Source: Streptomyces sp. NBC_00539 (GTDB lineage Bacteria > Actinomycetota > Actinomycetes > Streptomycetales > Streptomycetaceae). Taken from it: DNA of 64,000 bases. Position numbers and translations under genes: made by a program. Location: the NCBI RefSeq assembly GCF_036346105.1, contig NZ_CP107811.1, positions 992,001 to 1,056,000 on the forward strand. The letters run 5' to 3'. Positions 49,326 to 64,000 of the stretch are shown piece by piece. The first letter of the stretch is position 1. Each line of letters opens with the position of its first letter. The notes beneath the pieces were generated by a model, which did not search any database, was not told the origin of the DNA, and saw only the letters and a list, made by a program, of their open reading frames with translations.

Positions 49326-50603
49326 ATGTCTTCGAGCGCAGAGCAGCAGACCATCGATGATCCCGCGAAATCCACCCCACAACCCCTCAGGAAACTGAGG
49401 GGTTTCCGATTCTTCTTCCTTTCCAGGACGATATCCGGACTGGGCTCGGCCGTCACCACGGTCGTGCTTCCGGTCCTGACGTACCAGCAGACGCGGTCCC
49501 CGCTCCTGGTGTCCCTGGTCGCCGCGGCGGGAACCCTGCCGTACCTGCTGTTCGGGCTGGTGGCCGGGGTGGTGGCCGACCGGGTCGACCGCCGCCGCCT
49601 CATGGTGGCCGCCGACATCCTCAACGCCGCCTGCCTGGCGACCATCCCGGCGGCAGCCGCCCTCGGGGTGCTGACGGGCGTCCAGGTGATCGTCGTGGCG
49701 CTGCTGTCGTCCAGTCTCGCGCTGTTCTTCGACGCGGGGGTGTACGGGTTCGTTCCCGAGACGGTGGGCAAGGAGAACCTCGCCCAGGCCAACGGCCTGA
49801 TCTACGGCGCGGAGTCCGTCGTCCGCATCACCGGCACCGCGGTCGCCGGCGGCCTGATGGTCCTGCTCAGCCCGGCGGATTCCGTCGTGGTCGACGCCGT
49901 CTCCTTCATCGCCTCCGCGGTCCTCGTCCGGGCCGTCGCCCGCAAGCCCCGTAGTGGCGCTCCCGCCGCGCGCCCCGGTTTCAAGGAGTCCGTCGGCGAG
50001 GGGCTGCGGTTCCTCTGGGGACACCCGGTGCTGCGCACCATGACCGTGGTCGGCACGCTGCAGTCCTTCGCCGGAGGAGCGATCGTCGGGCAGATGGTCG
50101 TCTACGCGGACCGCGGGCTCGGGATCTCCGGCACGGACGCGCGGATCGGATTCCTCTACGCGGCGTGGAGCGCCGGCGGGATCGGCGGTTCGCTGCTCCT
50201 GCCCAGGATCCGCCGCCGGCTCGACGCCTCCCGGATCCTCCTGCTGGCGCTGCCGGCGGGTGCGCTGCTCGGTCTGGTCGTGGTGTTCGCCCAGGACTGG
50301 CGGGTCGCCGTGGCGGCGCTCGCGGTGTGGGGGTCGGCCTACCTGGTGGTGCTCGTCAACACGATGACGTACTCGCAGGAGGTCACGCCCGCGGAGCTCC
50401 AGGGCCGGGTGAACACCACCCGCCGGATGCTCTCCTCGGGCCTGGGGGTCCCGCTGGGAGCACTGGTCGCCAGCGCGGTGACCGTGCGCTTCGGGATCCA
50501 CGCCGGGATGTCGACGGCGGTCGCCTCGGTCGCCCTGGCCGCCGCACTGGTCTGGTCGGTCCACGTACGACAGCTCGTCCGGGAACCCGCGCGGCGCGAC
50601 TGA
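49326..50603 (+). CDS. MFS exporter (TMS/enterobactin-exporter type)
   Basis: A 425-aa MFS transporter with about 12 hydrophobic segments: FRFFFLSRTISGLGSAVTTVVLPVL at the N-terminus, GLVAGVVADRVDRRRLMVAADIL (the MFS signature loop), and SYISYSQE-like ...NTMTYSQEVTPAELQGRVNTTRRM near the end. It is driven by its own leaderless promoter. It lies directly upstream of the IDWP peptide gene, so it is the best candidate for exporting the mature peptide or its precursor. Confidence 0.9.
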   Translation: MSSSAEQQTIDDPAKSTPQPLRKLRGFRFFFLSRTISGLGSAVTTVVLPVLTYQQTRSPLLVSLVAAAGTLPYLLFGLVAGVVADRVDRRRLMVAADILNAACLATIPAAAALGVLTGVQVIVVALLSSSLALFFDAGVYGFVPETVGKENLAQANGLIYGAESVVRITGTAVAGGLMVLLSPADSVVVDAVSFIASAVLVRAVARKPRSGAPAARPGFKESVGEGLRFLWGHPVLRTMTVVGTLQSFAGGAIVGQMVVYADRGLGISGTDARIGFLYAAWSAGGIGGSLLLPRIRRRLDASRILLLALPAGALLGLVVVFAQDWRVAVAALAVWGSAYLVVLVNTMTYSQEVTPAELQGRVNTTRRMLSSGLGVPLGALVASAVTVRFGIHAGMSTAVASVALAAALVWSVHVRQLVREPARRD

Positions 50604-50625
50604 AACACCTTCCGCATCCGGCCCC

Positions 50626-50634
50626 CCAAGTTGG
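50626..50634. promoter_or_regulatory. CCAA-G-TTGG palindrome
   Basis: A 9-bp CCAAGTTGG palindrome after the exporter gene and upstream of the peptide gene. It matches the CCAAGNTTGG sites at 51146 and 51167. Candidate binding site for the neighbouring XRE regulator. Confidence 0.4.
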
Positions 50635-50809
50635 CAAGATCCCGTCCATAGCGGGCCTGCGGAGGCCGATACCCGGCCCGGCCGCAGCGTCCGCTCTGTC
50701 GGAAAACCGCAGCTCGGAGGGGTCTCACTGGAGCCTTCCGGTGTTGCCGAACCTTGTCTAGCTATTGCCAAAGAAGATGACGGGATTCTATTGTCGTTCT
50801 GCGCCCACA

Positions 50810-50831
50810 AAGTTCGACCGTGCGCGAACTT
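50810..50831. promoter_or_regulatory. AAGTTCG-N8-CGAACTT inverted repeat
   Basis: Perfect 7-bp inverted repeat, 8-nt spacer, in the 288-bp non-coding stretch between exporter and peptide genes. The spacing suits a dimeric regulator or a leader hairpin. Distinct from the CCAAG-TTGG sites. Confidence 0.5.
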
Positions 50832-50858
50832 CCGATGGATGCAGCCACGTCCATCGAG

Positions 50859-50878
50859 GTGGACTGTCCGCATACGCG
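50859..50878 (+). promoter_or_regulatory. Second copy of the shared 20-bp motif
   Basis: Matches 46639-46658 at 17 of 20 positions (GTGGACYGTCCGCATAYSCG) and lies 13 bp before the peptide gene start. Suggests common control with the divergent 46.6-kb intergenic region. Confidence 0.5.
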
Positions 50879-50891
50879 AAGGAAATACACT

Positions 50892-51098
50892 GTGAAGATC
50901 ACCCAGATCGCCGCCGCCGGAACAGCCGGACTCGCCGCAGCCGCCGCCTCGGCCCTGCTGCTGCTCGGCGGCGGCTCGGCTGCTGCGGCCCAGGCGCCGG
51001 AGCCGACCGAAAAGGTGGTCGTCACGGCTGCCATAGACTGGCCCGCGGCTTCCGCGACCTCCGCGACCAGCGCTTCGCCGATCATCGACTGGCCGTAG
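50892..51098 (+). CDS. Putative precursor peptide with two IDWP cores (68 aa)
   Basis: GTG 50892 has AAGGAA 7-8 bp upstream. The N-terminus (VKITQIAAAGTAGL, then an Ala/Leu-rich hydrophobic run to about residue 34) is a Sec-like signal peptide or transmembrane leader. After APEPTEK the tail carries VVVTAAIDWPAA (IDWP at residues 48-51), an Ala/Ser/Thr spacer, and SPIIDWP at the exact C-terminus (residues 65-68). Repeated short cores in one gene match what is known of the pheganomycin locus, where one gene encodes several precursor peptides that a ligase joins to a guanidino-dihydroxyphenylglycine derivative. It lies between an exporter and a regulator, next to the whole dihydroxyphenylglycine pathway. 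Its identity as precursor is inference. Confidence 0.75.
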   Translation: MKITQIAAAGTAGLAAAAASALLLLGGGSAAAAQAPEPTEKVVVTAAIDWPAASATSATSASPIIDWP

Positions 51099-51142
51099 CA
51101 CGCGGCGGGCGCTCCTGACTCCGACTCACATCGGGCAGCGAA

Positions 51143-51182
51143 TTGCCAAGATTGGGCAAGGCTTGACCAAGCTTGGCCCAAG
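51143..51182. promoter_or_regulatory. Operator-like array CCAAGATTGG / CCAAGCTTGG, 21 bp apart
   Basis: Two palindromes, CCAAGATTGG (51146-51155) and CCAAGCTTGG (51167-51176), are exactly 21 bp apart, two helical turns. Further CAAG/CTTG half-sites lie between and after them. The array is upstream of the XRE regulator gene, suggesting cooperative autoregulation. Confidence 0.55.
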
Positions 51183-51194
51183 GTGGAATCATGA

Positions 51195-51221
51195 GGGGGT
51201 GGGCCGTTTTGGCCCACCCCC
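51195..51221 (+). terminator. 11-bp hairpin between peptide and regulator genes
   Basis: Perfect stem 51195-51205 with 51211-51221, GTTTT loop. There is no T-run after it. It may end the peptide-gene transcript or act in the leader of the regulator mRNA. Confidence 0.6.
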
Positions 51222-51222
51222 T

Positions 51223-51241
51223 CCTGGCGCCGGACGCCAGG
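51223..51241 (+). promoter_or_regulatory. Second leader hairpin (CCTGGCG stem)
   Basis: CCTGGCG-N5-CGCCAGG begins 2 bp after the preceding hairpin and 40 bp before the regulator's start codon. Tandem hairpins at this place suggest attenuation or partial termination. Confidence 0.45.
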
Positions 51242-51279
51242 TGTTGGACACTCGGTTGATCTCCACACAGGAGCGGATT

Positions 51280-52497
51280 TTGCTGGAGCAGCCAGGATTC
51301 GGCCGTCGCTTGCGGCAACTGCGGCAGCAGCAGGGCAAATCGCAAGCCGATCTGACAGGCCCGGGCATGTCCGCCACGTACCTCTCGCGTCTTGAGTCCG
51401 GCGCACGCAGACCCACCGACCGGGCCGTCGCCTACCTCTCGGAAAAGCTCGGCGTCCCGCTGCGCACCCTCGCGGAGCAGCCCGAGGACAGCCTGGCCGA
51501 CGTGGTGGCCACCATCGCCTCCCTCTCCGAGCGCGAACTGGACGCCGAGACCGGCCGGATCCTCTCCGAAGCCCTGCGCGGCGATCCGGGTTCGGACCTC
51601 ATGACCCGCTGGCACGGGCTGACCCAACTCGGTCGCGTCTACGAGGTCGTGGGGGATTCCCCGGCCCAGCGCGACACCCTGACCGAGCTCACCGCGCTCG
51701 GCGAGGAGCTGGGGCGCCCCGCACTCCAGGTCCGCGCCCGGATCTGGATGGCCCGCTGCGCCCGTGACGTCGGTGACGCGAATGCGGCCCGGCAGGCCGT
51801 GCGCGAGGCGCTCGCCCTGAGCGAGCAGCACCACCTGCGCATCTCGGCCTCCGACCACGTCCGCAGCAAGCTCGTCCTCGTCTCGGCCGAAGCCGAACTG
51901 GGCGACCTGGCCGAAGCGGCACGGCTCAGCGACGAGGTCTGCGAGGCGCTCGGATCCACGCGCGGGACACTGGCCGCCGAGGCGTACTGGACGGCGGCCA
52001 CCGTCAGCACGCGCCAGGGGAACCATCCGCGGGCCTTCGCCCGCCTGACGGAGGCCCTGGCCGCCATCGACAGCCGCGATGACCTCATGCTGTGGATCAG
52101 GCTGCGGCTGGCCGCCGCGTCCTTGTCCATCCAGGCCATGCCGGCGCGGCTCGACGACGCCCAGTCCTACCTGGACAGTGTCGAGCCCGCCCTGGAACTC
52201 ACCGGCACGCCCCGCCACCTCCAGGAGCTGCTGTTCCTCAAGGCCAAGCTGGCGTTCCACCAGGGCGACGTCGAGCGGTCCACCGAGCTGGCCGCCCGGG
52301 TCAAGGACGGCGCCCCGCTGCTCTCCTACCGGGACCAGGTCCGCTTCGAAGTGCTGGAGGGCCTCCTCGCGATGTACGCCGGCGACCCGGATGCCCGGCG
52401 CCGCCTCACGGACCTCGCGGCGAAGGTGCAGACGGCCAACATGCCGGACCTCGCCGCCGAGGTCTGGCGGACGGTCGCCGAGAACAGCGGGCGGTAG
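51280..52497 (+). CDS. XRE-family regulator with TPR domain
   Basis: About 405 aa. Residues 8-65 form a Cro/C1-type helix-turn-helix (FGRRLRQLRQQQGKSQADL, SATYLSRLESGARRPTDRAVAYLSEKLGV). The rest is TPR-like helices (RIWMARCARDVGDANAARQAVREALAL, QLLFLKAKLAFHQGDVERSTELA). Such HTH-TPR proteins often sense small peptides or ligands through the TPR part. TTG 51280 is preferred because AGGAG lies 6 bp upstream; longer in-frame starts lack a ribosome site and would read through the hairpins. It lies between the putative precursor gene and the dihydroxyphenylglycine operon. It probably controls the cluster and itself through the CCAAG-TTGG sites upstream. Confidence 0.9.
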   Translation: MLEQPGFGRRLRQLRQQQGKSQADLTGPGMSATYLSRLESGARRPTDRAVAYLSEKLGVPLRTLAEQPEDSLADVVATIASLSERELDAETGRILSEALRGDPGSDLMTRWHGLTQLGRVYEVVGDSPAQRDTLTELTALGEELGRPALQVRARIWMARCARDVGDANAARQAVREALALSEQHHLRISASDHVRSKLVLVSAEAELGDLAEAARLSDEVCEALGSTRGTLAAEAYWTAATVSTRQGNHPRAFARLTEALAAIDSRDDLMLWIRLRLAAASLSIQAMPARLDDAQSYLDSVEPALELTGTPRHLQELLFLKAKLAFHQGDVERSTELAARVKDGAPLLSYRDQVRFEVLEGLLAMYAGDPDARRRLTDLAAKVQTANMPDLAAEVWRTVAENSGR

Positions 52498-52596: not shown

Positions 52597-53439
52597 TCAG
52601 GCCGGGTCGGATACGGGCAGCAGGCCCAGTCGCTCGTCGTGGCAGCCGGTGATCGGCGTGGTGTCCCGGCCGACGAGGAAGGCCGGGCGGGTGGGGTTGG
52701 CGGGGGCGTTGGCGACCGCGTTGTAGGTGATCAGCAGGAGGGCGCGCCGGTCGGCGGAGCGGTTGTTCGACGAGGAGTGCACGATGCTCGGGTGGAAGGC
52801 GTGCAGTGAGCCCGCCCCGCCGAGGATCGTCGACGTGCCGTTCTCGGCGATCAGCCGCTGGGCCCGGGCCTCGTCGACCGTGTACGCCAGGTCGTTGGAC
52901 ACGTGCCGGCGCCAGTCGGAGGCGGTGTCCGCCGACTTGTCGGGCAGGTCGAACAGGCCCATGGTGTGCGATCCGGGGATCACGACCAGGGGGCCGTTCT
53001 CCTCGTGCACGTCGTCCAGCGGGATCGCGAAGTTCACCGCGTCGGGACGCGGCATCGCGTCTTCCTCGCTCCAGAACGCGTAGTCCTGGTGCCACGGCCA
53101 GGCCGCTCCCTCACGCGCCTGCTTGAGGTTGACCTTGAACTGGTACACGTAGACCGGGCCGCCGATCAGCGTCTCGGCGATTTCCACGAGCATCGGGTGG
53201 CGCACGAGCGCCGCGCACACGTCGTCGAACTCGTGGCAGCCGTGGATGGCGCGGACGACGTCGCTGTCCTTCTCGTGCACCACCTCCGGCCGGCGCCGGC
53301 CGCTGATGTCCGCCACCCGACGGCGCAGCAGCTCGACCGACGCGTCGTCGAACCGGTAGGGCAGGGCGCAGGAACCGTCCCGTTCGTAGGCGGATTTCAG
53401 CTCGGACCGGGTCCCGCCTATGACGGTGGACGTAGACAT
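52597..53439 (-). CDS. PhyH-family Fe(II)/2-oxoglutarate dioxygenase
   Basis: A 280-aa phytanoyl-CoA/ectoine-hydroxylase-type oxygenase. Seen: VYVYQFKVNLKQAREGAAWPWHQDYAFW (His-x-Asp of the facial triad in WHQD), NFAIPLDDVHEENGPLVVIPGSHTMG, the distal His in SIVHSSSNN, and the 2-oxoglutarate Arg region NRSADRRALLL. ATG 53439 is chosen because GAGGAG lies 7 bp upstream; an ATG 6 bp earlier is too close to it. Located at the end of the amidinotransferase/P450/Dpg operon, it is a candidate for hydroxylating the aromatic amino acid, for example a ring methyl to hydroxymethyl. The P450 is the alternative for that step. Confidence 0.9.
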   Translation of the reverse strand: MSTSTVIGGTRSELKSAYERDGSCALPYRFDDASVELLRRRVADISGRRRPEVVHEKDSDVVRAIHGCHEFDDVCAALVRHPMLVEIAETLIGGPVYVYQFKVNLKQAREGAAWPWHQDYAFWSEEDAMPRPDAVNFAIPLDDVHEENGPLVVIPGSHTMGLFDLPDKSADTASDWRRHVSNDLAYTVDEARAQRLIAENGTSTILGGAGSLHAFHPSIVHSSSNNRSADRRALLLITYNAVANAPANPTRPAFLVGRDTTPITGCHDERLGLLPVSDPA

Positions 53440-53539: not shown

Positions 53540-54679
53540 TCAGCCGAGGTAGTCCTCGGCGCCGCCGGCCCGCACCGTGTCGAGGGTGAAGCAGTGGAAG
53601 CCGCCGCCGAAGAGCCTGCGGTGACGGTGGCGGACCGGGACGACCGTGAACCCGTGCTGTTCCAGCGTGCGGATGAGCGTCTTGCACGCGTCGTTGACCA
53701 TGACGGTCGACTCGTCGATCGACAGCAGGTTCAAGTCGATGTAGGGGCTCGGCGGGATGGGGTCGCCGCCCTCGTACTGCGGGTAGTCCTCCAGCGCGGG
53801 CGTGGGTGCCACGATGACGTCCCAGTTCCGCAGCGCCTCGGGGAGGTAGTCGCGGACCCCCTCCGAGCGCAGCAGCAGGGTGCCGGGGCGCAGCGCGACG
53901 ATGACGCTGTCGATGTGGCTCTGCGTGAGCTTGTGCATGCGGTGGACGCGGAAGCGTCCTTCGAGGTGCCGCTCCAGCCAGTCGACGGCCAGCGCGTGGT
54001 TGGCGTTGGAGATGTTGACGATCACGTCGCGCCCGAAGCGCAGGGCGTTCGCGCCGTCGATCAGCATCTCCAGGCCGACGTCGTACGGGGAGGGGCGGGG
54101 TTCGAGCGGCACCTCGACGTTGGGGGCGGCGGTGGCCACGTTCCCGGGGTCGAAGGAGTTGTCGGTCATGACCGGGCGGGGCATGGTGGTCCAGCGGGCG
54201 CCCTGGAGGAAGTAGTCCTGGAAGATCTGGGAGAGGAACTTCGTCTCGAAGTAGCGGGCCCGGAGCATCGGCGGGGTCTCGATGATCTCGTCGCCGAGGA
54301 TCAGGGTGTTGTCGCGGACGTTCAGCGGCGGCGTGACGGGCGCGGACCAGAACGGGGTGCTGACGCCCCGGTCGAACTTCTCCGGCGCCAGCGGCCGGTG
54401 GACCGTGATGCCGAGCGAGCGCAGGGTGTCGGCCATGCCTTCGACGTCCTCGACGAGTTCGTCGGCCAGGCGCTGGCGGAAGGCTATGCGCTCGGGTGAC
54501 TCGGACGTCGCGCCGTCCTCGGACACCCGGATGCTCGGGTAGTAGCCCCGGGCGCCGGTGAGGTTGTCGCTGATGAACATGTCGAAGGTGAGGTCGCGCA
54601 CGCGCTGGGCGTAGTTGTCGGCGGAGCCGACGACGACCTCCTTGAGGGAAGACCATTCGTCGTAGCTGTTGAGCTTCAT
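53540..54679 (-). CDS. Amidinotransferase (L-Arg:glycine/StrB1 type), paralogue 1
   Basis: A 379-aa amidinotransferase. N-terminal MKLNSYDEWSSLKEVVVGSADNY is the family signature. Active-site elements include LTQSHIDSVIVALRPG (His-Ile-Asp) and the catalytic Cys in LFGGGFHCFTLDTVR near the C-terminus. These enzymes move the amidino group of arginine onto an amine. In this setting the acceptor is most likely a dihydroxyphenylglycine-type amino acid, giving the guanidinoacetic acid of pheganomycin/resorcinomycin-like products. A second paralogue lies at 61671. ATG 54679 starts at the conserved N-terminus. Confidence 0.95.
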   Translation of the reverse strand: MKLNSYDEWSSLKEVVVGSADNYAQRVRDLTFDMFISDNLTGARGYYPSIRVSEDGATSESPERIAFRQRLADELVEDVEGMADTLRSLGITVHRPLAPEKFDRGVSTPFWSAPVTPPLNVRDNTLILGDEIIETPPMLRARYFETKFLSQIFQDYFLQGARWTTMPRPVMTDNSFDPGNVATAAPNVEVPLEPRPSPYDVGLEMLIDGANALRFGRDVIVNISNANHALAVDWLERHLEGRFRVHRMHKLTQSHIDSVIVALRPGTLLLRSEGVRDYLPEALRNWDVIVAPTPALEDYPQYEGGDPIPPSPYIDLNLLSIDESTVMVNDACKTLIRTLEQHGFTVVPVRHRHRRLFGGGFHCFTLDTVRAGGAEDYLG

Positions 54680-54721: not shown

Positions 54722-54934
54722 TCAGGGCGTGGTGTCGGCCGCGGCGGCGGTGAGGATGGCCTGGACGGGGCAGAGTCCCGCGGCCTCGTGCACTGCTTCG
54801 TGCAGGTCGTGGGGCGGCCGCTCGTCGAGGAGGAGGACGGTGCCGTCCTCGTCGTCCTGGTCGAAGACCTCGGGTACGGCCAGGGCGCACTGCCCGGATC
54901 CGACGCAGGCGTCGTGCTCGATGGTGATGTGCAT
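54722..54934 (-). CDS. Ferredoxin, 3Fe-4S type
   Basis: A 70-aa single-cluster ferredoxin: MHITIEHDACVGSGQCALAVPEVFDQDDEDGTVLLL with Cys 10 and 16, and the last ligand in AGLCPVQAI. The three-Cys pattern indicates a 3Fe-4S cluster, the usual partner of actinobacterial P450s. It lies 14 bp downstream of the P450 stop in the same direction, so it is that enzyme's electron donor. A ferredoxin reductase is not present in the window and would come from elsewhere. Confidence 0.93.
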   Translation of the reverse strand: MHITIEHDACVGSGQCALAVPEVFDQDDEDGTVLLLDERPPHDLHEAVHEAAGLCPVQAILTAAAADTTP

Positions 54935-54948: not shown

Positions 54949-56151
54949 TTACCAGGTGACCGGGAGCCGGTGGACGCCGTAGACGCTCATGTCCGCGGCG
55001 AGCGGGACCTCTTCCGGCGGGACGGCCAGGGCGAGGGTGGGGAAGCGCCGGAACAGCGCGGGCAGGGCCGTGCGCATCTCCATGCGGACCAGGTTCTGGC
55101 CCAGGCACTGGTGGATGCCGTACCCGAAGGCCATGTGGCCTGCCGTCTTGCGGGTGAAGTCCAGCCGGTCCGGGTCCTCGAACCAGGCCGGATCGCGGTT
55201 GGCCGCCGGGATCGACACGGTGACCGACTCGCCCCGCCGGAAGAGGTGGCCCTCGAACTCCACGTCCTCCAGCGGCGTGCGCGGCACACCGAAGTGGAAG
55301 ACCGAGAGGTGGCGCAGGAGTTCCTCGACGGCGTTGTCGGTGATCGAGGGATCGTCACGGAACACCGCGAGCTGGTCCGGGTGGGCCAGCAGGGCCAGCG
55401 TGCTCAGGCTCAGCGAGCTGGAGGTGGATTCGTGCCCGGCCGTCAGGAGCAGCACGCCGACGCCGGCGATCTCCTCGGCGTCGAGCGTGCCGTCCGCGGC
55501 CAGCATGGCCAGCAGTCCCGTCCCGTCGCCCGCGCCGGGGCCGTCGCCGTCGTCCGCCGCGAGTCCGCGCAGGAACCCGTACAGGCGGTCCATCGCCTCG
55601 GACGCCTCGGCGGCCGTCGCGTTGAGGCTGAAGAGGATCTCGCTGTTGCGCTGGAACGCGGCCCGCTCGCTGTACGGGACCCCCAGCAGCTCGCAGATCA
55701 TCAGCGAGGGCACCGGCAGGGCGAACGCCTCGACCAGGTCCACGGGCCCGCCGCGCTCGGCCATGGCGTCCAGCAGCCCGTCGACGATGCGCTCGATCTG
55801 CGGGCGCATCTCCCGCATCCGGCGGGCGGTGAACTTCCCCGCCAGCTGCTGGCGCAGCCGGGTGTGCTCGGGCGGATCCATGTCGACCAGCCAGCCCGGC
55901 AGGGCCTTCGCCCCGTAGAACGGGTCGGCCCCGGGCCGCGACACGGGGGCGCGCTTGAACTCCGAGCGGGCGCTGAAACGCTGGTCCGCCAGCAGCTTGC
56001 GGCCCAGGGCGTGGCTGGTGACCAGCCAGCCGATGTGGCCGTCGGGGTAACGCATCCGCCGGACGGGTTCGTTCTCGCGGTACTTGGCCAGCTCGGCCGG
56101 CGGGTCGAAGGCGTTGTGCCGCACGGTCGGGTGCGCGTCGGTCTGGATCAT
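54949..56151 (-). CDS. Cytochrome P450
   Basis: A 400-aa class I bacterial P450. I-helix oxygen motif VGVLLLTAGHESTSSS, K-helix EELLRH (ExxR), haem loop FGYGIHQCLGQNLVRME with the Cys ligand. WLVDMDPPEHTRLRQQLAGKFT is the typical CYP105/107-like C-helix region. The ATG overlaps the aminotransferase stop (ATGA) and a ferredoxin follows. In the dihydroxyphenylglycine operon it probably oxidises the aromatic ring or a ring-attached alkyl group, for example to hydroxymethyl. The substrate is inference. Confidence 0.95.
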   Translation of the reverse strand: MIQTDAHPTVRHNAFDPPAELAKYRENEPVRRMRYPDGHIGWLVTSHALGRKLLADQRFSARSEFKRAPVSRPGADPFYGAKALPGWLVDMDPPEHTRLRQQLAGKFTARRMREMRPQIERIVDGLLDAMAERGGPVDLVEAFALPVPSLMICELLGVPYSERAAFQRNSEILFSLNATAAEASEAMDRLYGFLRGLAADDGDGPGAGDGTGLLAMLAADGTLDAEEIAGVGVLLLTAGHESTSSSLSLSTLALLAHPDQLAVFRDDPSITDNAVEELLRHLSVFHFGVPRTPLEDVEFEGHLFRRGESVTVSIPAANRDPAWFEDPDRLDFTRKTAGHMAFGYGIHQCLGQNLVRMEMRTALPALFRRFPTLALAVPPEEVPLAADMSVYGVHRLPVTW

Positions 56152-57443
56152 CCCCGGATCTCCTTCGTCAGAAAAGCGGCGAGTCGCCGCACGCCTTCCT
56201 CGATCTGCCCGCGGTCGAGATAGCTGCATGAGAGCCGCATCTGGGTGTCGCCCGCGCCGTCGAGGTAGAACTGGTCCATCGGCGTCCACAGCACGCCGTA
56301 CTTCGCCGCCGACACCTCCAGCAGACGGGTGTCGGCGCGCACCGGCAGGTGGACGCGGACGAAGAACCCGCCTTCGGGCCGGTTCCACCGGATCCCGGGC
56401 GGCGCCGCGTCGCCGCCGAGCTCGTGGTCGAGCGCCTCCGTCAATGCCGTCAGGTTGCGCTGGTACAGCACTGCCTTGCGGCGGCTGAGTTCGACCAGGG
56501 AGCCGCCGTGTTCGAGCAGCATCCCGGCGATGACCGCCTGGGCGAGGGGGGAGGTGTTGACGGTGACCATCGTCTTGAGGGCGGCCAGCTCGGCGGCGAG
56601 CGGCCGTGTGCCGCCGCCCTCGGACCTCACGCGCTGGTCGGCCACGACGTAGCCGACGCGGGCGCCCGGGAAGGCGACCTTGGCGAAGGTCCCGATGTGG
56701 ATCACCCTGCAGCGGGTGTCGAGTGCCTTGAGCGGCGGGAGCTCGGTGCCGGCCCCGGCCGTGAATCCGTAGGCGTTGTCCTCCAGGACCTGGAAGTCCT
56801 CCTGTTCGGCCAGGTCGAGGAGCCGGCGGCGGCAGTCGAGGGACATCCGGGCGCCCCCCGGGTTGGAGAAGTCCGGGGCCACGTACAGGGCGCGGATGGC
56901 GCGTCCTTGCCGTCGCGCCGCCCGGCACTCCCGTGCGAGGCGGTCGAGATCGATGCCCTGCGCGGTCTCGTCGACCGGGACGACGTCGATGTCGAGCAGC
57001 CGGGCCGCGCCGGTGATGCCGACGAAGCAGGGGTTGGCGACGGCCAGGAGGTCGTCGGCCGATGCGAAGAGCGCGCGCAGGACCAGGAGCATCGCCTCCT
57101 GGGCGCCCACCGTGATGACGAGTTCCTCGGGTGCGCAGCCGATCCGGTGGTCCCGCCAGAGCGCCTCGCTGACCACGTCGTTGATGAGGCCCCGGCTGGG
57201 ACCGTACTCGTACAGGGTGCGGCGGGCCCGCTCCGCGCTGGTTCCCTGCTCCCGCAGGTGGGCGAGGTAGCGGTCCGTGTAGCGCTGGAGGTCCGGTCCG
57301 GGGAGGGTCTCGGGGTGGGGTGCGCCCGGCGCGAAGGAGATCGCTTCGGGGAAGCGCCCCATCACCTCGTTGAGGAAGCTGAGCGATCCCAGCACGGGCG
57401 CGCGCAGCGATCCGTGCAGCCGGGTCGGGTCGAATTCCACCAT
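56148..57443 (-). CDS. hpgT: Phenylglycine aminotransferase (HpgT-like)
   Basis: A 431-aa fold-type I PLP aminotransferase of the MocR/HpgT group. Seen: FAPGAPHPETLPG, YEYGPSRGLINDVVSEAL, VTVGAQEAMLLVLRALF, YVAPDFSNPGGARMS (Asn and PLP-contact region), EDNAYGF, and the PLP Lys segment IGTFAKVAFPGARVGYVV. HpgT converts 3,5-dihydroxyphenylglyoxylate (or 4-hydroxy) to the phenylglycine, using an amino donor. It follows dpgC by 4 bp and completes the dihydroxyphenylglycine pathway. ATG 57443 starts at the conserved N-terminus. Confidence 0.93.
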   Translation of the reverse strand: MVEFDPTRLHGSLRAPVLGSLSFLNEVMGRFPEAISFAPGAPHPETLPGPDLQRYTDRYLAHLREQGTSAERARRTLYEYGPSRGLINDVVSEALWRDHRIGCAPEELVITVGAQEAMLLVLRALFASADDLLAVANPCFVGITGAARLLDIDVVPVDETAQGIDLDRLARECRAARRQGRAIRALYVAPDFSNPGGARMSLDCRRRLLDLAEQEDFQVLEDNAYGFTAGAGTELPPLKALDTRCRVIHIGTFAKVAFPGARVGYVVADQRVRSEGGGTRPLAAELAALKTMVTVNTSPLAQAVIAGMLLEHGGSLVELSRRKAVLYQRNLTALTEALDHELGGDAAPPGIRWNRPEGGFFVRVHLPVRADTRLLEVSAAKYGVLWTPMDQFYLDGAGDTQMRLSCSYLDRGQIEEGVRRLAAFLTKEIRG

Positions 57444-57447: not shown

Positions 57448-58806
57448 TCAGCCCCGCGCCCGTGAACGCTGCCAGCGCCGCTCGACCTTGGCGAGGACGT
57501 CCTCGCTGTACGAGCGGGCGGCCTGGACCACCGCGAACTCGGCCAGGTAGGTGCGGTACAGGTCCAGCGGCTCCTCCGTGAGCCCCAGCATGCGCCGGTT
57601 GGCCGCGACGGCGGGACCGCTGAGCTCCCGTACGGCGGTCTCCACGGCCGCGTCCATCTCCTGTGCGGGCACGACCTGGTCGCAGACCAGGTGGACGTCG
57701 GGGTCCGCCGTGGTGATGCGGCGGCCGGCCAGGATGACCTGGCGGGCGGTGCGGGCACCGGTCAGCCGGCTCAGCCGGAGGTTGCCGAGGCCCGGCACGA
57801 TGCCCTCCTCGGCGGCGGGCAGGCTGAGGTAGGCGCCCTCCTCGGCGATGACGCGGTCGAGGACGAGCAGCAACTGCATGCCGCCGCCGATCGCGAAGGT
57901 GTCCACGGCGCCGATCCAGGGCTTCTGGACGGTCCGCTCCGCCCAGGCTTCTGCCTGCGGATCGGTCAGCAGACCGCGGTACATCTTGTTGATGTAGCCG
58001 AGCTCCCGGCCGAGCAGGAAGTCCACGAACGAGATGTCCCCGTTGCGCAGGTCCTTGAGGTTGATGCCGGCGCTGAACACCCGGCGGCCCTGGTAGCGGG
58101 GGTGGTCCACCTCGCCGCCGCGCAGGACGCCGACCCGTACCCCGTCGTCGAGCAGCGCCAGGTCCACCGCCGTCTCCAGGTCGGCGATCAGGGTGTTGTC
58201 CTCGGCGTTGAGGCAGTGGGCGTTGCGGAAGGTCACGTGGGCCGCCTCGCCGACCCGTTCGACGAGCACCCTCTCCAACTCGGCCCGTCCCGTGGCGCGG
58301 AACCCGTCGAGGAGCTCCAGGGCCCGGGGGGTGGGCAGCAGCATGGCGTCGATGAGGTGCGGCCCCGCGGTCCGCGAGCGCAGCACCGCGGCGCAGAAGA
58401 GCGCCTGGTCGATCTCCCGGCCCTCCTTCTCGGCCTGGATGCAGGCGCCTTCCGCCGCCATCTGGGCCCCCGTGGGCACCAGCCCGGGGAAGCGGACGGC
58501 CGCCGCGTCGAGCAGTCCGGCCAGGCGCTCGTGGCGGGTACGGCCGCCGGTCAGCTCGTCGTACACGGCCTCGGTGTGCAGGGTCAGGAAGGAGCGGCGG
58601 GCCGCACGGCAGGCGGTGAACACGCTCTGCGCGAGGGCGTCCTGCTCCTCGTCGCGACCGGGTCTGGCCGGCAGCGCGGCCAGCAGTTCCTCCCCGGCGG
58701 CGGCGAACGCCGCGAGGGTCCGTGCGTCGTCGGCGAGCACGCCGCCGAAGTGCGGGGCGGGGACGGACCACAGCGGTGCCGCCCCGGGTGCGACGGCGGT
58801 GGTCAT
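57448..58806 (-). CDS. dpgC: DpgC, 3,5-dihydroxyphenylacetyl-CoA dioxygenase
   Basis: A 452-aa crotonase-fold, cofactor-independent dioxygenase turning 3,5-dihydroxyphenylacetyl-CoA into 3,5-dihydroxyphenylglyoxylate. It has the long helical N-terminal domain (residues about 1-190) specific to DpgC, then crotonase elements FSAGINLKDLRNGDISF, KPWIGAVDTFAIGGGMQLLLVLDRVIAE and LPAAEEGIVPGLGNLRLSRLTG with the oxyanion-hole glycines. It starts by ATGA overlap with dpgB. The enzyme needs no metal or flavin, so its presence with DpgA/B/D defines the Dpg route rather than Hpg. Confidence 0.96.
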   Translation of the reverse strand: MTTAVAPGAAPLWSVPAPHFGGVLADDARTLAAFAAAGEELLAALPARPGRDEEQDALAQSVFTACRAARRSFLTLHTEAVYDELTGGRTRHERLAGLLDAAAVRFPGLVPTGAQMAAEGACIQAEKEGREIDQALFCAAVLRSRTAGPHLIDAMLLPTPRALELLDGFRATGRAELERVLVERVGEAAHVTFRNAHCLNAEDNTLIADLETAVDLALLDDGVRVGVLRGGEVDHPRYQGRRVFSAGINLKDLRNGDISFVDFLLGRELGYINKMYRGLLTDPQAEAWAERTVQKPWIGAVDTFAIGGGMQLLLVLDRVIAEEGAYLSLPAAEEGIVPGLGNLRLSRLTGARTARQVILAGRRITTADPDVHLVCDQVVPAQEMDAAVETAVRELSGPAVAANRRMLGLTEEPLDLYRTYLAEFAVVQAARSYSEDVLAKVERRWQRSRARG

Positions 58807-59537
58807 GCGACGGCTCCGGTGAGCTCCGGTGCGGTGTCCGCGACGACCGCGGCCGACGCCGCGTCGGTGGCCACGGGGCACTCGGCGGCCGCTGCCCGCA
58901 GCCGGCGCAGTTCACGGTCGCAGGCGGCGAGGTGGAGGCCGAGGGCCTCGTCGTACTCGGCGGACACGGCTTCGGCGATCAACTGGCGGCGCAGCGCCGT
59001 CTCGCGGTTCGACAGGCGGCCGGTGAGGGCGGTCGCGGTGGCCAGGGCCTCCTCGATGCCGTCACCGACCTCGTCGATCAGACCCAGGCCGACGGCCCGG
59101 CCCAGCGGGATGTCCGCGCCCCACATGACGATCTGCCGGGCCCGCTGCGCGCCCAGGTGACGGACCAGTCGGTACAGCGCCATGCCCGGCCAGAAGTGGC
59201 CGTCGTTGACCGGCAGCACCAGTCGCAGCCCGGTGGCGCCGATCCGGAAGTCGGTGGCGAGGAGCAGGTCCAGGGCGGGGCCGGCGCAGCTCTCCGCGGC
59301 CACGGCGACCGTGATCGCGTCGAGCTTCTCCAGGCGGCGGACTGCCCGCTCCCAGCGGTTGACGGCCGAGACGCTGACGTCCCCGGGCCACTGCCGCCTC
59401 TCGCCGGAGCCGACGAGCCGCAGCACGACGGCGGTCTTGGTGCGGGAGGACTCGACCTCGTCGCAGAGGGCCTGGACGGTGGCGGTCAGCTCGTCCAGGG
59501 GGCGGGCCGCGTCGATCTCCGCGATATTGCTGTTCAT
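58803..59537 (-). CDS. dpgB: DpgB, crotonase-family partner of DpgA
   Basis: A 244-aa enoyl-CoA-hydratase-like protein that raises DpgA turnover and helps aromatise the tetraketide. Seen: VVLRLVGSGERRQWPGDVS, AVNRWERAVRRLEKLDAITVAVAAESCAGPALDLLLATDFRIGA (crotonase core) and VWGADIPLGRAVGLGLIDEV. It is weaker at the catalytic positions than DpgD, as known for DpgB. ATG 59537 is preferred with GGAAGGAAT upstream; GTG 59561 overlaps the dpgA stop but has no ribosome site. The end overlaps dpgC. Confidence 0.93.
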   Translation of the reverse strand: MNSNIAEIDAARPLDELTATVQALCDEVESSRTKTAVVLRLVGSGERRQWPGDVSVSAVNRWERAVRRLEKLDAITVAVAAESCAGPALDLLLATDFRIGATGLRLVLPVNDGHFWPGMALYRLVRHLGAQRARQIVMWGADIPLGRAVGLGLIDEVGDGIEEALATATALTGRLSNRETALRRQLIAEAVSAEYDEALGLHLAACDRELRRLRAAAAECPVATDAASAAVVADTAPELTGAVA

Positions 59538-59557: not shown

Positions 59558-60766
59558 TCACCAGGAGACCAGGGCCATTTCGATGGTCGATCCCGGCCCC
59601 ATGGTCATAAAGACACCGAATTCACCGGGGGCGGTCACGCCCTCGGCACGCAGCCGTTCGTAGGAGAAGAGGAACGATCCGCTGGAGACATTTCCGTGGT
59701 CGCGCAGCACCCCGGTCGTGTGCCGTACGTCGTGCCGGCTGAGCCCGAGGTTGGCCCGGACCGCGTCGATCACTTTCTTTCCGCCCGAGTGGATGACCCA
59801 GTGGGCAATGTCGGACCGCCCCAATCCCGTCCCCTCAAGGAGCCGGTCGAGTGCGATCTCCGCATGGGCTCCGACCACATAAGGGACTTCCGGGTCGAGA
59901 TAGAAGCTGAACTTTCCGTGGGTGTCGTCCCAGTCGTAGCGCATGGCGCCGACGGCCTCGGGAATGATGCAGCTGGAGAACCTCAGCAGCGCGGGGTCCG
60001 AACCGGCGGGCACGGCCTGCTCGACGGGCGCGGAGCCTCCGGCCGGTGCGGCGTCTTCGGCGGGTTCGGCGTCTTCGACGGGTGCGGCGTCTTCGACGGG
60101 TACCACGGATGCGGCGGGTGCCACGGCCGCGAGGGGCCGCGAGACCGCCTCGGTCACCGCGGGCGCCATGACCGCGACCGCCCCGGACCCGTCGCCGAAG
60201 AGGCTGTTGACCACGGACGAACGCATCGTGCCGTCGAAGACGTACGCCGCCGAGCAGGCTTCGATGCACACCAGCACCGCGAGCTCACCCGGGTGGGAGT
60301 TGGCCCAGGAGGCCACGGCGGTCAGGGCGTTGAGGCCGGCGTTGCAGCCCATGCCCACCACGTCGAGGCGGGAGGTGTGCACGTCCAGGCCCAGCTCCTT
60401 GATGAGGAGCGCGGAGAAACCGGGTGTCAGCAGGCCCGTGGTCGTCGTGCAGCACAGGTAGCGGATGTCCTCCAGCGAGGCGCCCGCGTCCTTGAGGCAC
60501 GCCTCGATGGCCTCCCGGCCCATGGCGAGGCCGTTGACCCGGTGCTTCTGCAGGAGTTCGCCCTGCGTCTCCATGGCCCGGGAACCGTCCGGCAGGAGCG
60601 GCGGCAGGGTCAGACCGCGCCGTTCGATGGCGCTGTTGAGGAATATCGAGCGCACCCGCGGATCGGTGATTCCGAACTCGTCGAGCATCTCCTGCTGCGT
60701 ATAGGAAGTCTTCGGTACAGCGGTCCCGATTCCCGTTATCCTCGGCGGATTTGCTGTCAATTTCAC
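59558..60766 (-). CDS. dpgA: DpgA, type III PKS, 3,5-dihydroxyphenylacetyl-CoA synthase
   Basis: A 402-aa type III polyketide synthase that condenses four malonyl-CoA to 3,5-dihydroxyphenylacetyl-CoA. Catalytic residues are visible: Cys in VGMGCNAGLNAL, His in HWVIHSGGKKVID, Asn in RDHGNVSSGSF. GTG 60766 has GGGAG upstream. It is longer than usual: an acidic Ala/Pro/Glu repeat insertion of about 40 residues (around residues 205-250, repeats of VEDA/AEDA with P) separates the Cys and His halves. It heads the minus-strand Dpg operon and is divergent from dpgD with only 28 bp between them. Confidence 0.96.
   Translation of the reverse strand: MKLTANPPRITGIGTAVPKTSYTQQEMLDEFGITDPRVRSIFLNSAIERRGLTLPPLLPDGSRAMETQGELLQKHRVNGLAMGREAIEACLKDAGASLEDIRYLCCTTTTGLLTPGFSALLIKELGLDVHTSRLDVVGMGCNAGLNALTAVASWANSHPGELAVLVCIEACSAAYVFDGTMRSSVVNSLFGDGSGAVAVMAPAVTEAVSRPLAAVAPAASVVPVEDAAPVEDAEPAEDAAPAGGSAPVEQAVPAGSDPALLRFSSCIIPEAVGAMRYDWDDTHGKFSFYLDPEVPYVVGAHAEIALDRLLEGTGLGRSDIAHWVIHSGGKKVIDAVRANLGLSRHDVRHTTGVLRDHGNVSSGSFLFSYERLRAEGVTAPGEFGVFMTMGPGSTIEMALVSW
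60045..60098 (-). repeat. 18-bp tandem repeat inside dpgA
   Basis: Three 18-bp units (start 60045, 60063, 60081; consensus GGTGCGGCGTCTTCGRCG on the plus strand) encode the acidic E-D-A-A-P hexads of the DpgA insertion. Slippage in a surface loop is the likely origin. Confidence 0.85.
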
Positions 60767-60788: not shown

Positions 60789-60794
60789 ACTTCC

Positions 60795-61598
60795 ATGCCA
60801 AAACATTCAGCGGTGCGGTACGAGAAGAATGACCACGTTGCCCGGATCACGCTCGACAGGCCCGAGGTCCTCAATGCGATGAACCTGTCGATGCACGAGG
60901 AGCTCGCCGAAATCTGGGACGATTTCGAGGGTGACGACGACATGCGGGTGGCGGTACTCACCGGCGCCGGCGAGCGGGCGTTTTCCGTCGGTCAGGACTT
61001 GAAGGAACTGGCCGGCCGGGACCGCGCCGGAACCGCCGCCCCCGCCACCTTCGGCAGCCGCGGCAAGCCGGGCTGGCCCCGGTTGACCGAACGGTTCGAC
61101 CTGGCCAAGCCGGTCGTCGCCGCCGTGCGGGGGTACGCACTGGGAGGGGGCTTCGAACTGGCTCTGGCCTGCGACATCGTCATCGCCTGCGAGGACGCCT
61201 CGTTCGCGTTGCCGGAGGCCAGACTCGGCCTCATGGCCGGTGCCGGAGGGGTGTTCCGGCTGACCCGGCAGCTGCCCTGGAAGACGGCGATGGGACACCT
61301 CCTCACGGGTCGCCCGATGGATGCCCACCGGGCCTACGAACTCGGTCTGGTCAACGAGGTCGCCTCCGCCACCGGTTTCGAGGCGTGCGTCGAAAGCTGG
61401 GTGGCCGACCTCGTACGCTGCGCTCCGCTCTCCGTCCGGGCGATGAAGGAGGCGGCGACGAAGTCCGCGACGATGCCGCTGGAGCAGGCGTTCGCGACCC
61501 GCTACCCGTGGGAGGAGCGGCGGATGCACAGCAGGGACGCAGTCGAGGGACCGGCGGCCTTCGCCGAGAAGCGCGCTCCGCGGTGGCAGGCCCGCTGA
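60795..61598 (+). CDS. dpgD: DpgD, enoyl-CoA hydratase-like
   Basis: A 267-aa crotonase-family protein: [56 protein letters not shown] (oxyanion-hole GGG) and [20 protein letters not shown] with the second active-site region. DpgD acts with DpgB to aromatise or dehydrate the DpgA product. Unusually it is on the opposite strand to dpgA-C, divergent with a 28-bp gap, whereas dpgA-D are normally one operon in glycopeptide clusters. A -10-like TACAAT just upstream suggests a leaderless mRNA. Confidence 0.94.
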
Positions 61599-61670: not shown

Positions 61671-62831
61671 TCAGCCGAGGTAGTCCTCGGCCCCGCCCTC
61701 GCGCACGGTGTCGAGGGTGAAGCAGTGGAACCCGCCGCCGAACAGCCGGCGGTGCCGGTGCCGGACGGGCACGACGGTGAACTTGTGCGACTCCAGCAGC
61801 CGGATCAGCTCGGGGCACGCCTCGTTCACCAGCACCGTGTCCGGCCCGACGGAGAGGACGTTCAGGTCTATGAAGGGGCTGGTCAGGATGAGGTCGTCGT
61901 CCTCGTAGCGGGGGAAGTTGTCGCCCGCCGGCGTGGGCGCCACGATCAGGTCCCACTTGCGCAGCGGCTCGGGCAGCTTCTCGGCCACTTCCTTGGAGCG
62001 CACCAGCAGGGTCCCGGGCCGCAGCGCGAGCACCATGCTGTCGATGTGGCTGTCGCTGAGCTGGTGCACCCGGTGGATCCGGAACCGGCCCTCGAGGTGG
62101 CGCTCCAGCCAGTCGACGGCCAGCGCGTGGTTGGCCGTCGCGATGTTGGCCACGATGTCCCGGCCGAGCCGCAGGCACTGGGCCCCGTCGAACATCATCT
62201 CCAGACCCACGTCGTACGGCGACGCCTGCGGGTCGGTGATGGGCTCGGTCGGCCCTCCCGCGGTGCTGGTCCGTACGTACGACAGGTCGAAGGACGCGTC
62301 GGTCATCATCGGCCGGGGCATGACCGTCCAGCGGGCCCCCTGCCGGAAGTAGTCCTGGAAGGCGGACTTGAGGAACTGCGTCTCGAAGTACCGTGAGCGG
62401 ATCATCGGCGGGGTTTCGATGATCTCGTCGCCGACGATGAGGGTGTTGTCCCGCACGTTCAGCGGCGGTACGACCGACGCCGACCAGGCGGGCGTACGGA
62501 CCTCGTTGGTCTGCGCCTCCAGGTCGGACGGCCGCAGGACGTTCACCGACAGGGAGCGGAGCACGCCGGCGAGCTCCTCCAGGTCCTCGTTCAGTTCGGC
62601 GACGTAGCGTTCCTTGATCGGCACCCGCCCGTCACCCGGCCCGCGCGGCTCGGCCCCGCGCGCGGACAGTCGCGGGTAGTACCACTCGGAGCGGGACGAG
62701 TTGTCCATGGCCAGGTTGTCATGGAAGAAGAGGTCGAACGACAGCTCCCGTTCGTGCGACACGTAGTTCCTGGCAGAGCCGACGATCACCTCCTTCAGTG
62801 GTGACCACTCGTCAAAGCTGTTCAGTTGCAC
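61671..62831 (-). CDS. Amidinotransferase (L-Arg:glycine/StrB1 type), paralogue 2
   Basis: A 386-aa amidinotransferase closely related to the one at 53540: MQLNSFDEWSPLKEVIVGSARNYV, LSDSHIDSMVLALRPG, catalytic Cys in LFGGGFHCFTLDTVREGG, and the same C-terminal GGAEDYLG. GTG 62831 has GAGGGA upstream. Two intact paralogues in one cluster could modify two acceptors (for example phenylglycine and a side-chain amine), act as a hetero-oligomer, or be redundant. It converges on dpgD and is divergent from the methyltransferase. Confidence 0.94.
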   Translation of the reverse strand: MQLNSFDEWSPLKEVIVGSARNYVSHERELSFDLFFHDNLAMDNSSRSEWYYPRLSARGAEPRGPGDGRVPIKERYVAELNEDLEELAGVLRSLSVNVLRPSDLEAQTNEVRTPAWSASVVPPLNVRDNTLIVGDEIIETPPMIRSRYFETQFLKSAFQDYFRQGARWTVMPRPMMTDASFDLSYVRTSTAGGPTEPITDPQASPYDVGLEMMFDGAQCLRLGRDIVANIATANHALAVDWLERHLEGRFRIHRVHQLSDSHIDSMVLALRPGTLLVRSKEVAEKLPEPLRKWDLIVAPTPAGDNFPRYEDDDLILTSPFIDLNVLSVGPDTVLVNEACPELIRLLESHKFTVVPVRHRHRRLFGGGFHCFTLDTVREGGAEDYLG

Positions 62832-62912
62832 GGTCCCTCATTTCCTGTATCCCGGCTCTCCGGCCGCTCCCGCCGGAACGCTACTGCGTGACCGCACGCC
62901 CTCCACGACGGA

Positions 62913-62928
62913 TGGCAATTATTTGCCA
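62913..62928. promoter_or_regulatory. TGGCAA-TTAT-TTGCCA palindrome
   Basis: Perfect 6+6 palindrome with TTAT centre in the 196-bp divergent region between amidinotransferase 2 (start 62831) and the methyltransferase (start 63028). Good operator candidate; related to but not the same as the CCAAG-TTGG sites. Confidence 0.5.
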
Positions 62929-63027
62929 CTCCCCCGGCAACACCTCGCCCCCGAGGCTAGGTTCGTCGTCGGCCAGGGACTCCAACCAGCCGGAGTCCGG
63001 CAGACGCAACGGAAAGTGACAGGCAAA

Positions 63028-64000
63028 ATGGACACCTTGCACCACGGCGACCCGGTTTTCGAGCGTTTTCAGTTCCTGGTGAATGCGCCGGCTCTGTTCA
63101 ACGCGGTCGCCACGGCGGTCGAGCTGAGGATCTTCCACTTCCTCGCCGACAATCCCGGTTCCGCCCCCGAGGACATCCGCGAATTCACCGACATGCCGCA
63201 GCACCAGCTGCGCGTCCTGCTCCAGGCGGTGTGCACGACCGGCCTGCTGCGCCGTGAGAACGGGAACTACTTCAACTCCGCCGTGGCCCAGGACCTGCTC
63301 GCCTCGGACGCGGAGGACAGCTGGGGTCACATCATCGTGGGCTGGAAGGAGGTCTATTACCCCGCCTTCGCCCACATGACCAAGGCGCTCAAGGCCGGCA
63401 CGAACACCGCCCTCGATGCCTACCCTGGTGACGAGCCGACGCTCTACCAGCGCCTTTCGCGCAATCCGGAGCTGGAGGCGGTATTCCACCGCGCGATGAG
63501 CGCGTTCACCCTGCAGTCCGTCGACGCGCTCGTGGAGCGCCCCGAGTTCGAGTCGGTGCGCAAGCTGCTCGACATCGGCGGCGGTGACGGGACCACCTCC
63601 GCCCGTCTGGCCGCCCGCCACCAAGACCTCAGCTCCACCGTCTTCGACATGCCGAGCGTCTCCAAGCTCGGCGAGAAGGCCACCGCCGTCCTCGCCGACC
63701 GGGTCGAACTCCACCCCGGTGACATCTTCAACGACGAGTTCCCCCTCGGCAGCGACGCTGTGCTCTTCAGCCACGTCCTGGAAATCTTCTCCGAGGACCA
63801 GATCCTCGGCCTGATGAAGAAGGCGTACGACGCCCTTCCCGAGGGCGGAAAGGTATTCGTCTACGGCTACAACGTCTCCGACGACGAGACCACCGGGGTG
63901 TTCGGCGCCCGCCTCGGCCTCTATTTCAACGTCCTTGCCAGCGGTCAGGGAATGGCCTACCCGGCGCGGGACTACGAGGCGTGGCTGAGCCAGGTCGGTT
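63028..64000 (+). CDS. SAM-dependent methyltransferase, 3' end cut by window
   Basis: At least 324 aa, open at the right edge. The N-terminal dimerisation/winged-helix region (FERFQFLVNAPALFNAVATAVELRIFHFLADN, MPQHQLRVLLQAVCTTGLLRRE) is followed by a Rossmann SAM domain with motif I RKLLDIGGGDGTTSARLA and VFDMPSVSKLGEKA. This is the plant-COMT-like family 2 O-methyltransferase fold, which in bacteria also includes ring C-methyltransferases. ATG 63028 has AGG upstream. In this cluster a C-methylation of the dihydroxyphenyl ring, later oxidised to hydroxymethyl, is the attractive role; O-methylation is the alternative. Confidence 0.9.
   Translation, partial: MDTLHHGDPVFERFQFLVNAPALFNAVATAVELRIFHFLADNPGSAPEDIREFTDMPQHQLRVLLQAVCTTGLLRRENGNYFNSAVAQDLLASDAEDSWGHIIVGWKEVYYPAFAHMTKALKAGTNTALDAYPGDEPTLYQRLSRNPELEAVFHRAMSAFTLQSVDALVERPEFESVRKLLDIGGGDGTTSARLAARHQDLSSTVFDMPSVSKLGEKATAVLADRVELHPGDIFNDEFPLGSDAVLFSHVLEIFSEDQILGLMKKAYDALPEGGKVFVYGYNVSDDETTGVFGARLGLYFNVLASGQGMAYPARDYEAWLSQVG

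Follow-up and report, generated by a model that had tools for sequence, protein, structure and literature searches.

In pheganomycin-type systems an ATP-grasp ligase couples a guanidino acid to a ribosomal peptide, and the first residue of pheganomycin is N-amidinated. Peptide signalling of the RRNPP/ComRS type is known from Firmicutes, and HelR protects RNA polymerase from rifamycins. Here we describe a locus of Streptomyces sp. NBC_00539 that shares features with each of these systems. The window, the whole stretch of 64,000 nucleotides that was analysed, corresponds to C1:992001-1056000 of a 7.5-Mb, two-contig genome. Its right part encodes a putative set of enzymes for guanidino-dihydroxyphenylglycine and a short open reading frame (ORF) with two IDWP segments, followed by a regulator.

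According to passages of PMC8939145, the pheganomycin genes besides PGM1 include a nonribosomal peptide synthetase (NRPS) gene, a radical SAM enzyme and a C-methyltransferase, and further ATP-grasp enzymes are found near such genes. Passages of PMC10075063 state that Actinomycetota typically signal through small molecules made by enzymes, and Bacillota through oligopeptides; the names Streptomyces and Actinobacteria do not occur in the main text of PMC9765709. In the titles and passages searched, Streptomyces signalling is small-molecule based, gamma-butyrolactones above all, and no paper on IDWP peptides or on RRNPP-type signalling in Streptomyces was found. Nor did these sources describe an NRPS product containing guanidino-dihydroxyphenylglycine, and the product of the locus could not be named from them.

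Structure and conservation of the putative cluster

The genes between position 41278 and approximately 79.7 kb (coordinates extended beyond the right edge of the window) probably constitute one NRPS cluster of about 38 kb for a guanidino-dihydroxyphenylglycine peptide, in which the IDWP ORF would encode a pheromone precursor and not the core of the product. The original prediction had been a pheganomycin-like hybrid of a ribosomal peptide and guanidino-dihydroxyphenylglycine enzymes. The enzyme set of such clusters is indeed present: NCBIfam, Pfam and structure profiles confirm dpgA-D, two amidinotransferases (named here AmtA and AmtB), P450, ferredoxin, PhyH oxygenase, methyltransferase, exporter and small peptide gene at or near the predicted positions. 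The gene called hpgT encodes a class I/II aminotransferase by Pfam, and the name describes a presumed role. The other half of the hybrid, a ribosomal core joined by a PGM1 ligase, was not supported, as discussed below. The features of the proposed cluster are as follows.

41278..42228, minus strand: ATP-grasp ligase, RimK/GshB-like (Pfam GSH-S_ATP, 2.9e-10)
42253..42669, minus strand: aspartate 1-decarboxylase, PanD (TIGR00223, 164.7 bits, cut-off 106)
42710..44059, minus strand: 449-residue protein with a weak ATP-grasp_3 match only, beside guanidino genes in some relatives
44056..45249, minus strand: GNAT (Acetyltransf_6/FemAB-like, both models below the Pfam cut-off)
45246..46601, minus strand: DUF6002 protein (PF19465, 1.3e-198; predicted model with mean pLDDT 79.9)
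46841..49294, plus strand: HelD/HelR-like RNA-polymerase recycling motor (NF041258, 649 bits, below the cut-off of 1100)
49326..50603, plus strand: MFS exporter (PF05977, 8.6e-37)
50892..51098, plus strand: putative propeptide of 68 residues with two IDWP segments, proposed pheromone precursor (signal-peptide-like by eye)
51143..51179, no strand assigned: operator-like element, TTGCCA..GGCAA..TTG, separating the peptide and regulator genes; relatives have similar ones
51283..52497, plus strand: XRE-HTH and TPR regulator of 404 residues, proposed peptide receptor (start codon uncertain; Pfam scan from 51367)
52597..53439, minus strand: PhyH-type oxygenase, ectoine-hydroxylase-like (below the cut-off of the ectoine hydroxylase model)
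53540..54679, minus strand: amidinotransferase AmtA of the NRPS-associated clade (structure match, tree)
54722..54934, minus strand: ferredoxin (Pfam)
54949..56151, minus strand: cytochrome P450 (Pfam)
56148..57443, minus strand: class I/II aminotransferase, presumed HpgT role (Pfam)
57448..58806, minus strand: DpgC (NF042432, 583.6 bits, cut-off 530)
58803..59537, minus strand: DpgB (NF042431, 232.8 bits, cut-off 140)
59558..60766, minus strand: DpgA, type III polyketide synthase (NF042429, 616.7 bits, cut-off 425)
60795..61598, plus strand: DpgD (NF042430, 470 bits, cut-off 400)
61671..62831, minus strand: amidinotransferase AmtB, of the type common to PGM1-ligase loci (structure match, tree)
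63028..64000, plus strand: O-methyltransferase, extending 65 bases beyond the window edge (Pfam)
L008:105-320, right of the window edge: MbtH, after the O-methyltransferase
L008:385-15699: five-module NRPS with thioesterase, 5,104 residues, after MbtH

A counterpart block was found in S. antimicrobicus, split over two contigs that both end at apparently the same junction. The first contig carries the ATP-grasp, PanD, 42710, GNAT, DUF6002, HelD-like, MFS, peptide and regulator genes, and the second runs from PhyH to the start of the NRPS, of which 149 residues are covered. Identity to the window is 78-96%, except for the peptide gene, which gives no BLASTP match. The order and strand of the methyltransferase, MbtH and NRPS genes next to AmtB are conserved. 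The conserved block is bordered on the left by the ATP-grasp gene at 41278; since the S. antimicrobicus contig has no window match to the left of this gene, the glutamate-mutase NRPS cluster at 1-38 kb of the window is considered separate. The counterpart of the operon 41278-46601 in Streptomyces sp. WAC06614, together with the MFS and HelD-like genes, lies directly beside methyltransferase-AmtB-P450-ferredoxin-AmtA, the arrangement of the operon seen in locus L027. In these and the following comparisons, genes of the fetched loci were called by a codon-usage script and labelled by their best BLASTP match to window genes, and a gene counts as absent when the flanks examined (at most 10 kb per side, often less) do not contain it.

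DpgA, DpgB, DpgC and DpgD all score above the NCBIfam equivalog cut-offs and, with the aminotransferase, would make 3,5-dihydroxyphenylglycine (Dpg). AmtA and AmtB are 65% identical and are the only two amidinotransferases of this kind in the genome. The solved structures nearest to both are StrB1, SxtG and AGAT (E about 1e-39 to 1e-50), aligned over most of the length; common to all are the FHC and H[IV]D motifs, which we take to hold the catalytic Cys and His. One or both enzymes would transfer an amidino group from arginine to Dpg or to another amine of the product.

A further 40 kb beyond the right edge of the window (L008) was also examined. By Pfam and motifs, the NRPS has the order A-T-C-A-T-C-A-T-C-A-T-C-A-T-TE of adenylation (A), thiolation (T), condensation (C) and thioesterase (TE) domains. 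Since it opens with an A domain and has no C domain in front, it could accept an N-amidinated starter, and the five-module enzyme could load an N-blocked guanidino acid as residue 1. The A-domain codes, read by eye, are DPYELGTLY (A1), DAHFAAHVV (A2), DFWNVGMVH (A3), DVQYLANVV (A4) and DPYDIGNLF (A5). A1 resembles the Dpg code, DPYHLGTLC, with Glu for His; A3 differs from the Thr code in one residue, and A2 and A4 resemble Pro codes. On this reading module 3 would select Thr, modules 2 and 4 proline-like and modules 1 and 5 arylglycine-like residues. DpgA-D with an adjoining multimodular NRPS is the arrangement of a Dpg-containing NRPS cluster. The product would be decorated by PhyH, P450 and the O-methyltransferase and exported by the MFS protein. 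A glutamate-5-kinase-like amino acid kinase (L008:15772-16839) is encoded directly after the NRPS.

Association of the IDWP peptide with a regulator family

The 68-residue ORF contains the two predicted IDWP segments, encoded at 51033-51044 and 51084-51095, the latter at its C-terminus, and ends 184 bases upstream of the regulator gene. These segments stand above chance because relatives of the neighbouring regulator also have them. Two genus samples, of 393 and 121 genomes, were used. A regulator homologue (E<=1e-40) occurs in 64 of the 393 genomes, own included, and the peptide counts refer to the 30 regulator loci returned. An ORF of 20-140 residues ending exactly in [IVLM][DEG]WP was present in 19 of these loci, again with the window's own; in a control set of 1,164,896 bases (52 amidinotransferase loci, the window, L008, L009 and L019) the single such ORF was that of the window itself. 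A looser rule with up to 10 residues after the motif, which has no control of its own, gave 23 of 30 loci and both post hoc additions (L146 and L151). The second search, for IDWP followed by TRR, found 36 places in the 121 genomes; the codon was a true stop in 19 and Trp in 17. Among the 30 places examined (16 stop, 14 Trp), some of which coincide with loci of the first count, the regulator lay within 3 kb in 10 stop loci, own included, and in no Trp locus. In a tree of 22 regulators, the peptide accompanies 11 of the 12 members of the window's clade.

Judged by eye, the N-terminal parts of the propeptides are Sec-signal-like, and IDWP is conserved within otherwise divergent sequences. Two or three copies of it occur in the propeptides of L157, L159, L172 and L178, and multiple copies also in those of the window and its S. 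antimicrobicus counterpart. L157 and L178 have three copies each, and L157 has no regulator in its 3-kb locus. The ORF most likely encodes a pheromone precursor. In profile searches with the regulator, ComR, PlcR and Rgg align over the HTH only (Rgg as far as residue 106) and TPR proteins over other parts, and an HTH and TPR protein, the proposed receptor, adjacent to a propeptide with a conserved C-terminal segment is RRNPP-like. The propeptide would be secreted, trimmed to a short IDWP-ending peptide, re-imported and bound by the adjacent XRE-TPR regulator, which would then switch the cluster.

A TTGCCA..GGCAA..TTTGCCA element recurs between peptide and regulator, where 10 loci were aligned, and CTTGGCAA is present in 7 of 12 loci, approximately 28-fold over background. 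The element is plausible as an operator. No second copy was found elsewhere in the window with a pattern derived from the window's own site, and since the pattern was made from this site, its own match is not independent evidence. An 8-base motif, TTGSCNAG, was not enriched in the window (10 found, 7.8 expected).

The regulator-peptide pairs often stand near other biosynthetic genes, and none of the 20 other regulator neighbourhoods read (3.9-20 kb) contains dpgA-D, hpgT or amidinotransferase genes. NRPS-labelled genes were found in nine (L128, L129, L131, L132, L134, L135, L137, L138 and L140), and ATP-grasp L-amino-acid ligases in L121 and L130 by Pfam and, to judge from gene order, probably in L126 and L127. 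Pfam shows an Asn-synthase/PqqD/AurF set in L122, which L124 and L125 resemble in their gene order, and L133 has a radical SAM gene. The IDWP ORF travels with this regulator family and not with the guanidino genes. Its proposed role as a ribosomal core was rejected because it goes with regulator loci without dpg or amidinotransferase genes; it was the sole precursor candidate considered, and the result does not extend to the other small ORFs. In L138 (G260:C10) a regulator homologue (59%) stands beside PhyH (67%), a 42710-like gene (33%) and NRPS genes; by its gene content, this locus is part of the window's block in another setting, without dpg or amidinotransferase genes.

We speculate that a quorum-sensing system of RRNPP/ComRS design is widespread in Streptomyces. 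An IDWP-ending peptide, present in one to three copies per secreted propeptide, would bind an XRE-TPR receptor and switch on the adjoining cluster, here one for a guanidino-dihydroxyphenylglycine NRPS peptide that may hit RNA polymerase. We regard the prospects of this broader proposal as evenly balanced. If true, a linear-peptide signal shared by many strains would offer a cheap synthetic key, an IDWP-ending peptide, that could be tried on silent clusters.

Distribution of amidinotransferases and PGM1-type ligases

A scan of one genome per species yielded 52 loci with amidinotransferase relatives. A PGM1-like ligase is present in 17 of them, all with an AmtB-type and none with an AmtA-type gene; the label stands for 24-29% identity to the homologue of the window's own genome and was confirmed by Pfam in all three loci scanned. 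The AmtA clade (17 tree rows, support 100/100) lies apart from AmtB and has, in the flanks examined, a PGM1-like ligase in none of its rows and a large NRPS gene in 10. Since no PGM1-like gene was found there and an NRPS is frequent, the guanidino-aryl-glycine module seems to occur in two settings, with a ligase and with an NRPS, the window belonging to the latter. Homologues of DUF6002, GNAT or 42710 flank six of the 52 loci. Locus L061 of the alphaproteobacterium Agrobacterium cavarae has AmtB-DpgA-DpgB-DpgC-HpgT homologues and a PGM1-like ligase, a possible pheganomycin-type cluster outside actinomycetes.

Only one stretch of the genome, C1:374792-375952, scores above the cut-offs for the PGM1 domains PF18604 and PF18105, and it lies at a distance of 616 kb from the window. 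This distant homologue matches PGM1 (3wvq) at E 2.8e-17, and no chalcone-synthase-type gene matched near it. This true PGM1-like ligase (L019:8768-10108) stands in a neighbourhood without an amidinotransferase of the window's kind. No PGM1-type ligase was found, at the sequence level, in the window or in the next 40 kb beyond its right edge, an outcome that the original prediction had named as refuting it, and a five-module NRPS adjoins. Two proteins, described as ATP-grasp, had been named for comparison with PGM proteins. The protein at 41278-42228 is indeed of this fold family (GSH-S_ATP/RimK); that at 42710-44059 reached ATP-grasp_3 only at E 0.061 and has no PDB match by profile at E<=0.1. 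Neither matches 3wvq at E<=1, whereas the distant homologue does, and a PGM1-type ligase within the cluster was rejected on these grounds. A domain scan of the genes between 41278 and 82 kb revealed no radical SAM enzyme.

HelD/HelR-like gene and other genes of the window

Three NCBIfam HelR/HelD models score the gene at 46841-49294 at 433-649 bits, and three more HelD-like places in the genome show 55, 48 and 40% identity. The copy of the window is kept with the cluster in S. antimicrobicus (78%), WAC06614 (62%) and S. albidochromogenes (L031, 60%), which is a hint, and no more, that the product targets RNA polymerase. By protecting this enzyme, the HelD/HelR-like motor may give self-protection. 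The combination of a guanidino-aryl NRPS cluster and a HelD/HelR-like gene provides a testable guess of the target, RNA polymerase. Profile searches for solved relatives of the GNAT and DUF6002 proteins gave nothing useful.

The separate NRPS cluster occupies positions 1-38000 of the window. Besides a pair of B12 glutamate mutase genes (30066-31786), it encodes a class II aminoacyl-tRNA-synthetase-like protein (31855-32838), a glutamate-synthase/FMN-type protein (32835-34139) and a protein with a Castor/Pollux-type ion-channel domain (20577-22493). It is absent beside the S. antimicrobicus cluster.

Alternative explanations

It is very improbable, in our view, that an ATP-grasp ligase couples the guanidino acid to a ribosomal peptide from the IDWP ORF. 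The locus has the dpg, amidinotransferase, P450 and methyltransferase genes in common with the pheganomycin-type system, homologues of 42710, GNAT and DUF6002 occur in three loci with a PGM1-like ligase (L033, L036 and L051), an ATP-grasp enzyme is encoded at 41278, and an NRPS gene is reported in pheganomycin's own cluster in passages of PMC8939145. Against these likenesses stand the 616 kb that separate the window from the only PGM1 domains over cut-off, the absence of a strict IDWP-ending ORF from the examined flanks of all 52 amidinotransferase loci, including the 17 with a PGM1-like ligase, and the IDWP peptides beside regulators in neighbourhoods without dpg or amidinotransferase genes. 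The NRPS could also belong to a separate neighbouring cluster, with other enzymes using the guanidino acid, and its start in S. antimicrobicus is covered for 149 residues only; yet the methyltransferase-MbtH-NRPS order and strand are kept there beside AmtB, and a large NRPS gene flanks 10 of the 17 AmtA-clade rows, which makes such a separation highly unlikely.

Instead of a signal, the IDWP ORF might encode a small secreted protein that is merely inherited together with the regulator, such as an immunity peptide or a leader under common regulation. Two close regulators without an IDWP ORF would fit this, and association alone gives no direction; but conservation of IDWP in a diverged remainder (by eye), propeptides with two or three copies (L157, L159, L172 and L178) and an HTH-TPR partner that fits the RRNPP plan render it rather unlikely. 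One amidinotransferase may act on another amine, such as an ornithine-like unit or the beta-alanine that PanD would make, and the amine of the Dpg residue may stay free. Proteins of the PanD family supply beta-alanine, two amidinotransferases are present together with a PanD gene, and AmtA-type rows form a clade separate from AmtB. On the other side, a PanD gene flanks only one of 16 AmtA-clade loci, although S. antimicrobicus has one on another contig, and the AmtB type alone goes with dpg genes in PGM1-ligase loci. We treat this alternative as a real, if less favoured, possibility.

The preferred reading, an NRPS cluster next to a pheromone and its receptor, has to face contrary observations of its own. 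The match of the regulator to solved RRNPP receptors is confined to the HTH. Of the 30 regulator loci, 11 have no strict ORF, and the motif was not found where it was looked for beside the close homologues L077 and L078 (64-66% identical) and in L138. In six of the 16 IDWP-stop loci the regulator is missing from the surrounding 3 kb, and the Trp loci are a weak control, as 11 of the 14 resemble a single sequence that recurs; the reversed pattern gave more matches than the pattern in its true direction, so weight attaches to the association alone and not to the number of places. Clustering of the peptide label over the whole regulator tree is not significant (58 of 500 shuffles were as low). 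The window and S. antimicrobicus are the only cases in which the peptide-regulator pair was seen with this cluster, and a regulator homologue was found in 7 of 34 amidinotransferase-cluster genomes searched, on the contig of the cluster only in S. antimicrobicus. As for the product, A domains were readable in 11 of the 52 related loci and none is Dpg-like. In the genome of L022 the NRPS stretch is masked. The presence of an NRPS alone is not decisive, since such a gene is among the pheganomycin genes in passages of PMC8939145, and in L034, L035, L045 and L049 the PGM1-like gene has smaller NRPS-labelled genes as neighbours. The HelR score (649 of 1100 bits) is below every curated HelR/HelD cut-off.

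Comparison with known systems

With the pheganomycin and resorcinomycin clusters of the PGM1 type, the locus shares DpgA-D, the aminotransferase, a StrB1-like amidinotransferase, P450 and methyltransferase, as found in PGM1-ligase loci. In contrast to them it has no nearby PGM1-type ligase and no supported ribosomal core, and it has in addition a second type of amidinotransferase, the PanD/ATP-grasp operon and a five-module NRPS.

Like the RRNPP/ComRS systems of Firmicutes, it combines an XRE-HTH and TPR protein with a short propeptide having a conserved aromatic C-terminal segment. It differs in its high-GC Streptomyces host, in the same IDWP word recurring across many species and different clusters, and in propeptides some of which have two or three copies. 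Among the HelR/HelD recycling motors, which three NCBIfam models represent, the gene of the window stands out by scores below the cut-offs and by its place inside a biosynthetic cluster.

The Dpg-containing NRPS clusters of the glycopeptide and feglymycin type have in common with the locus a DpgA-D set, MbtH and an NRPS with arylglycine-like A domains. Here, unlike in those clusters, two amidinotransferases, an N-terminal A domain without a C domain, Thr and Pro-like middle modules and a PanD operon are found.

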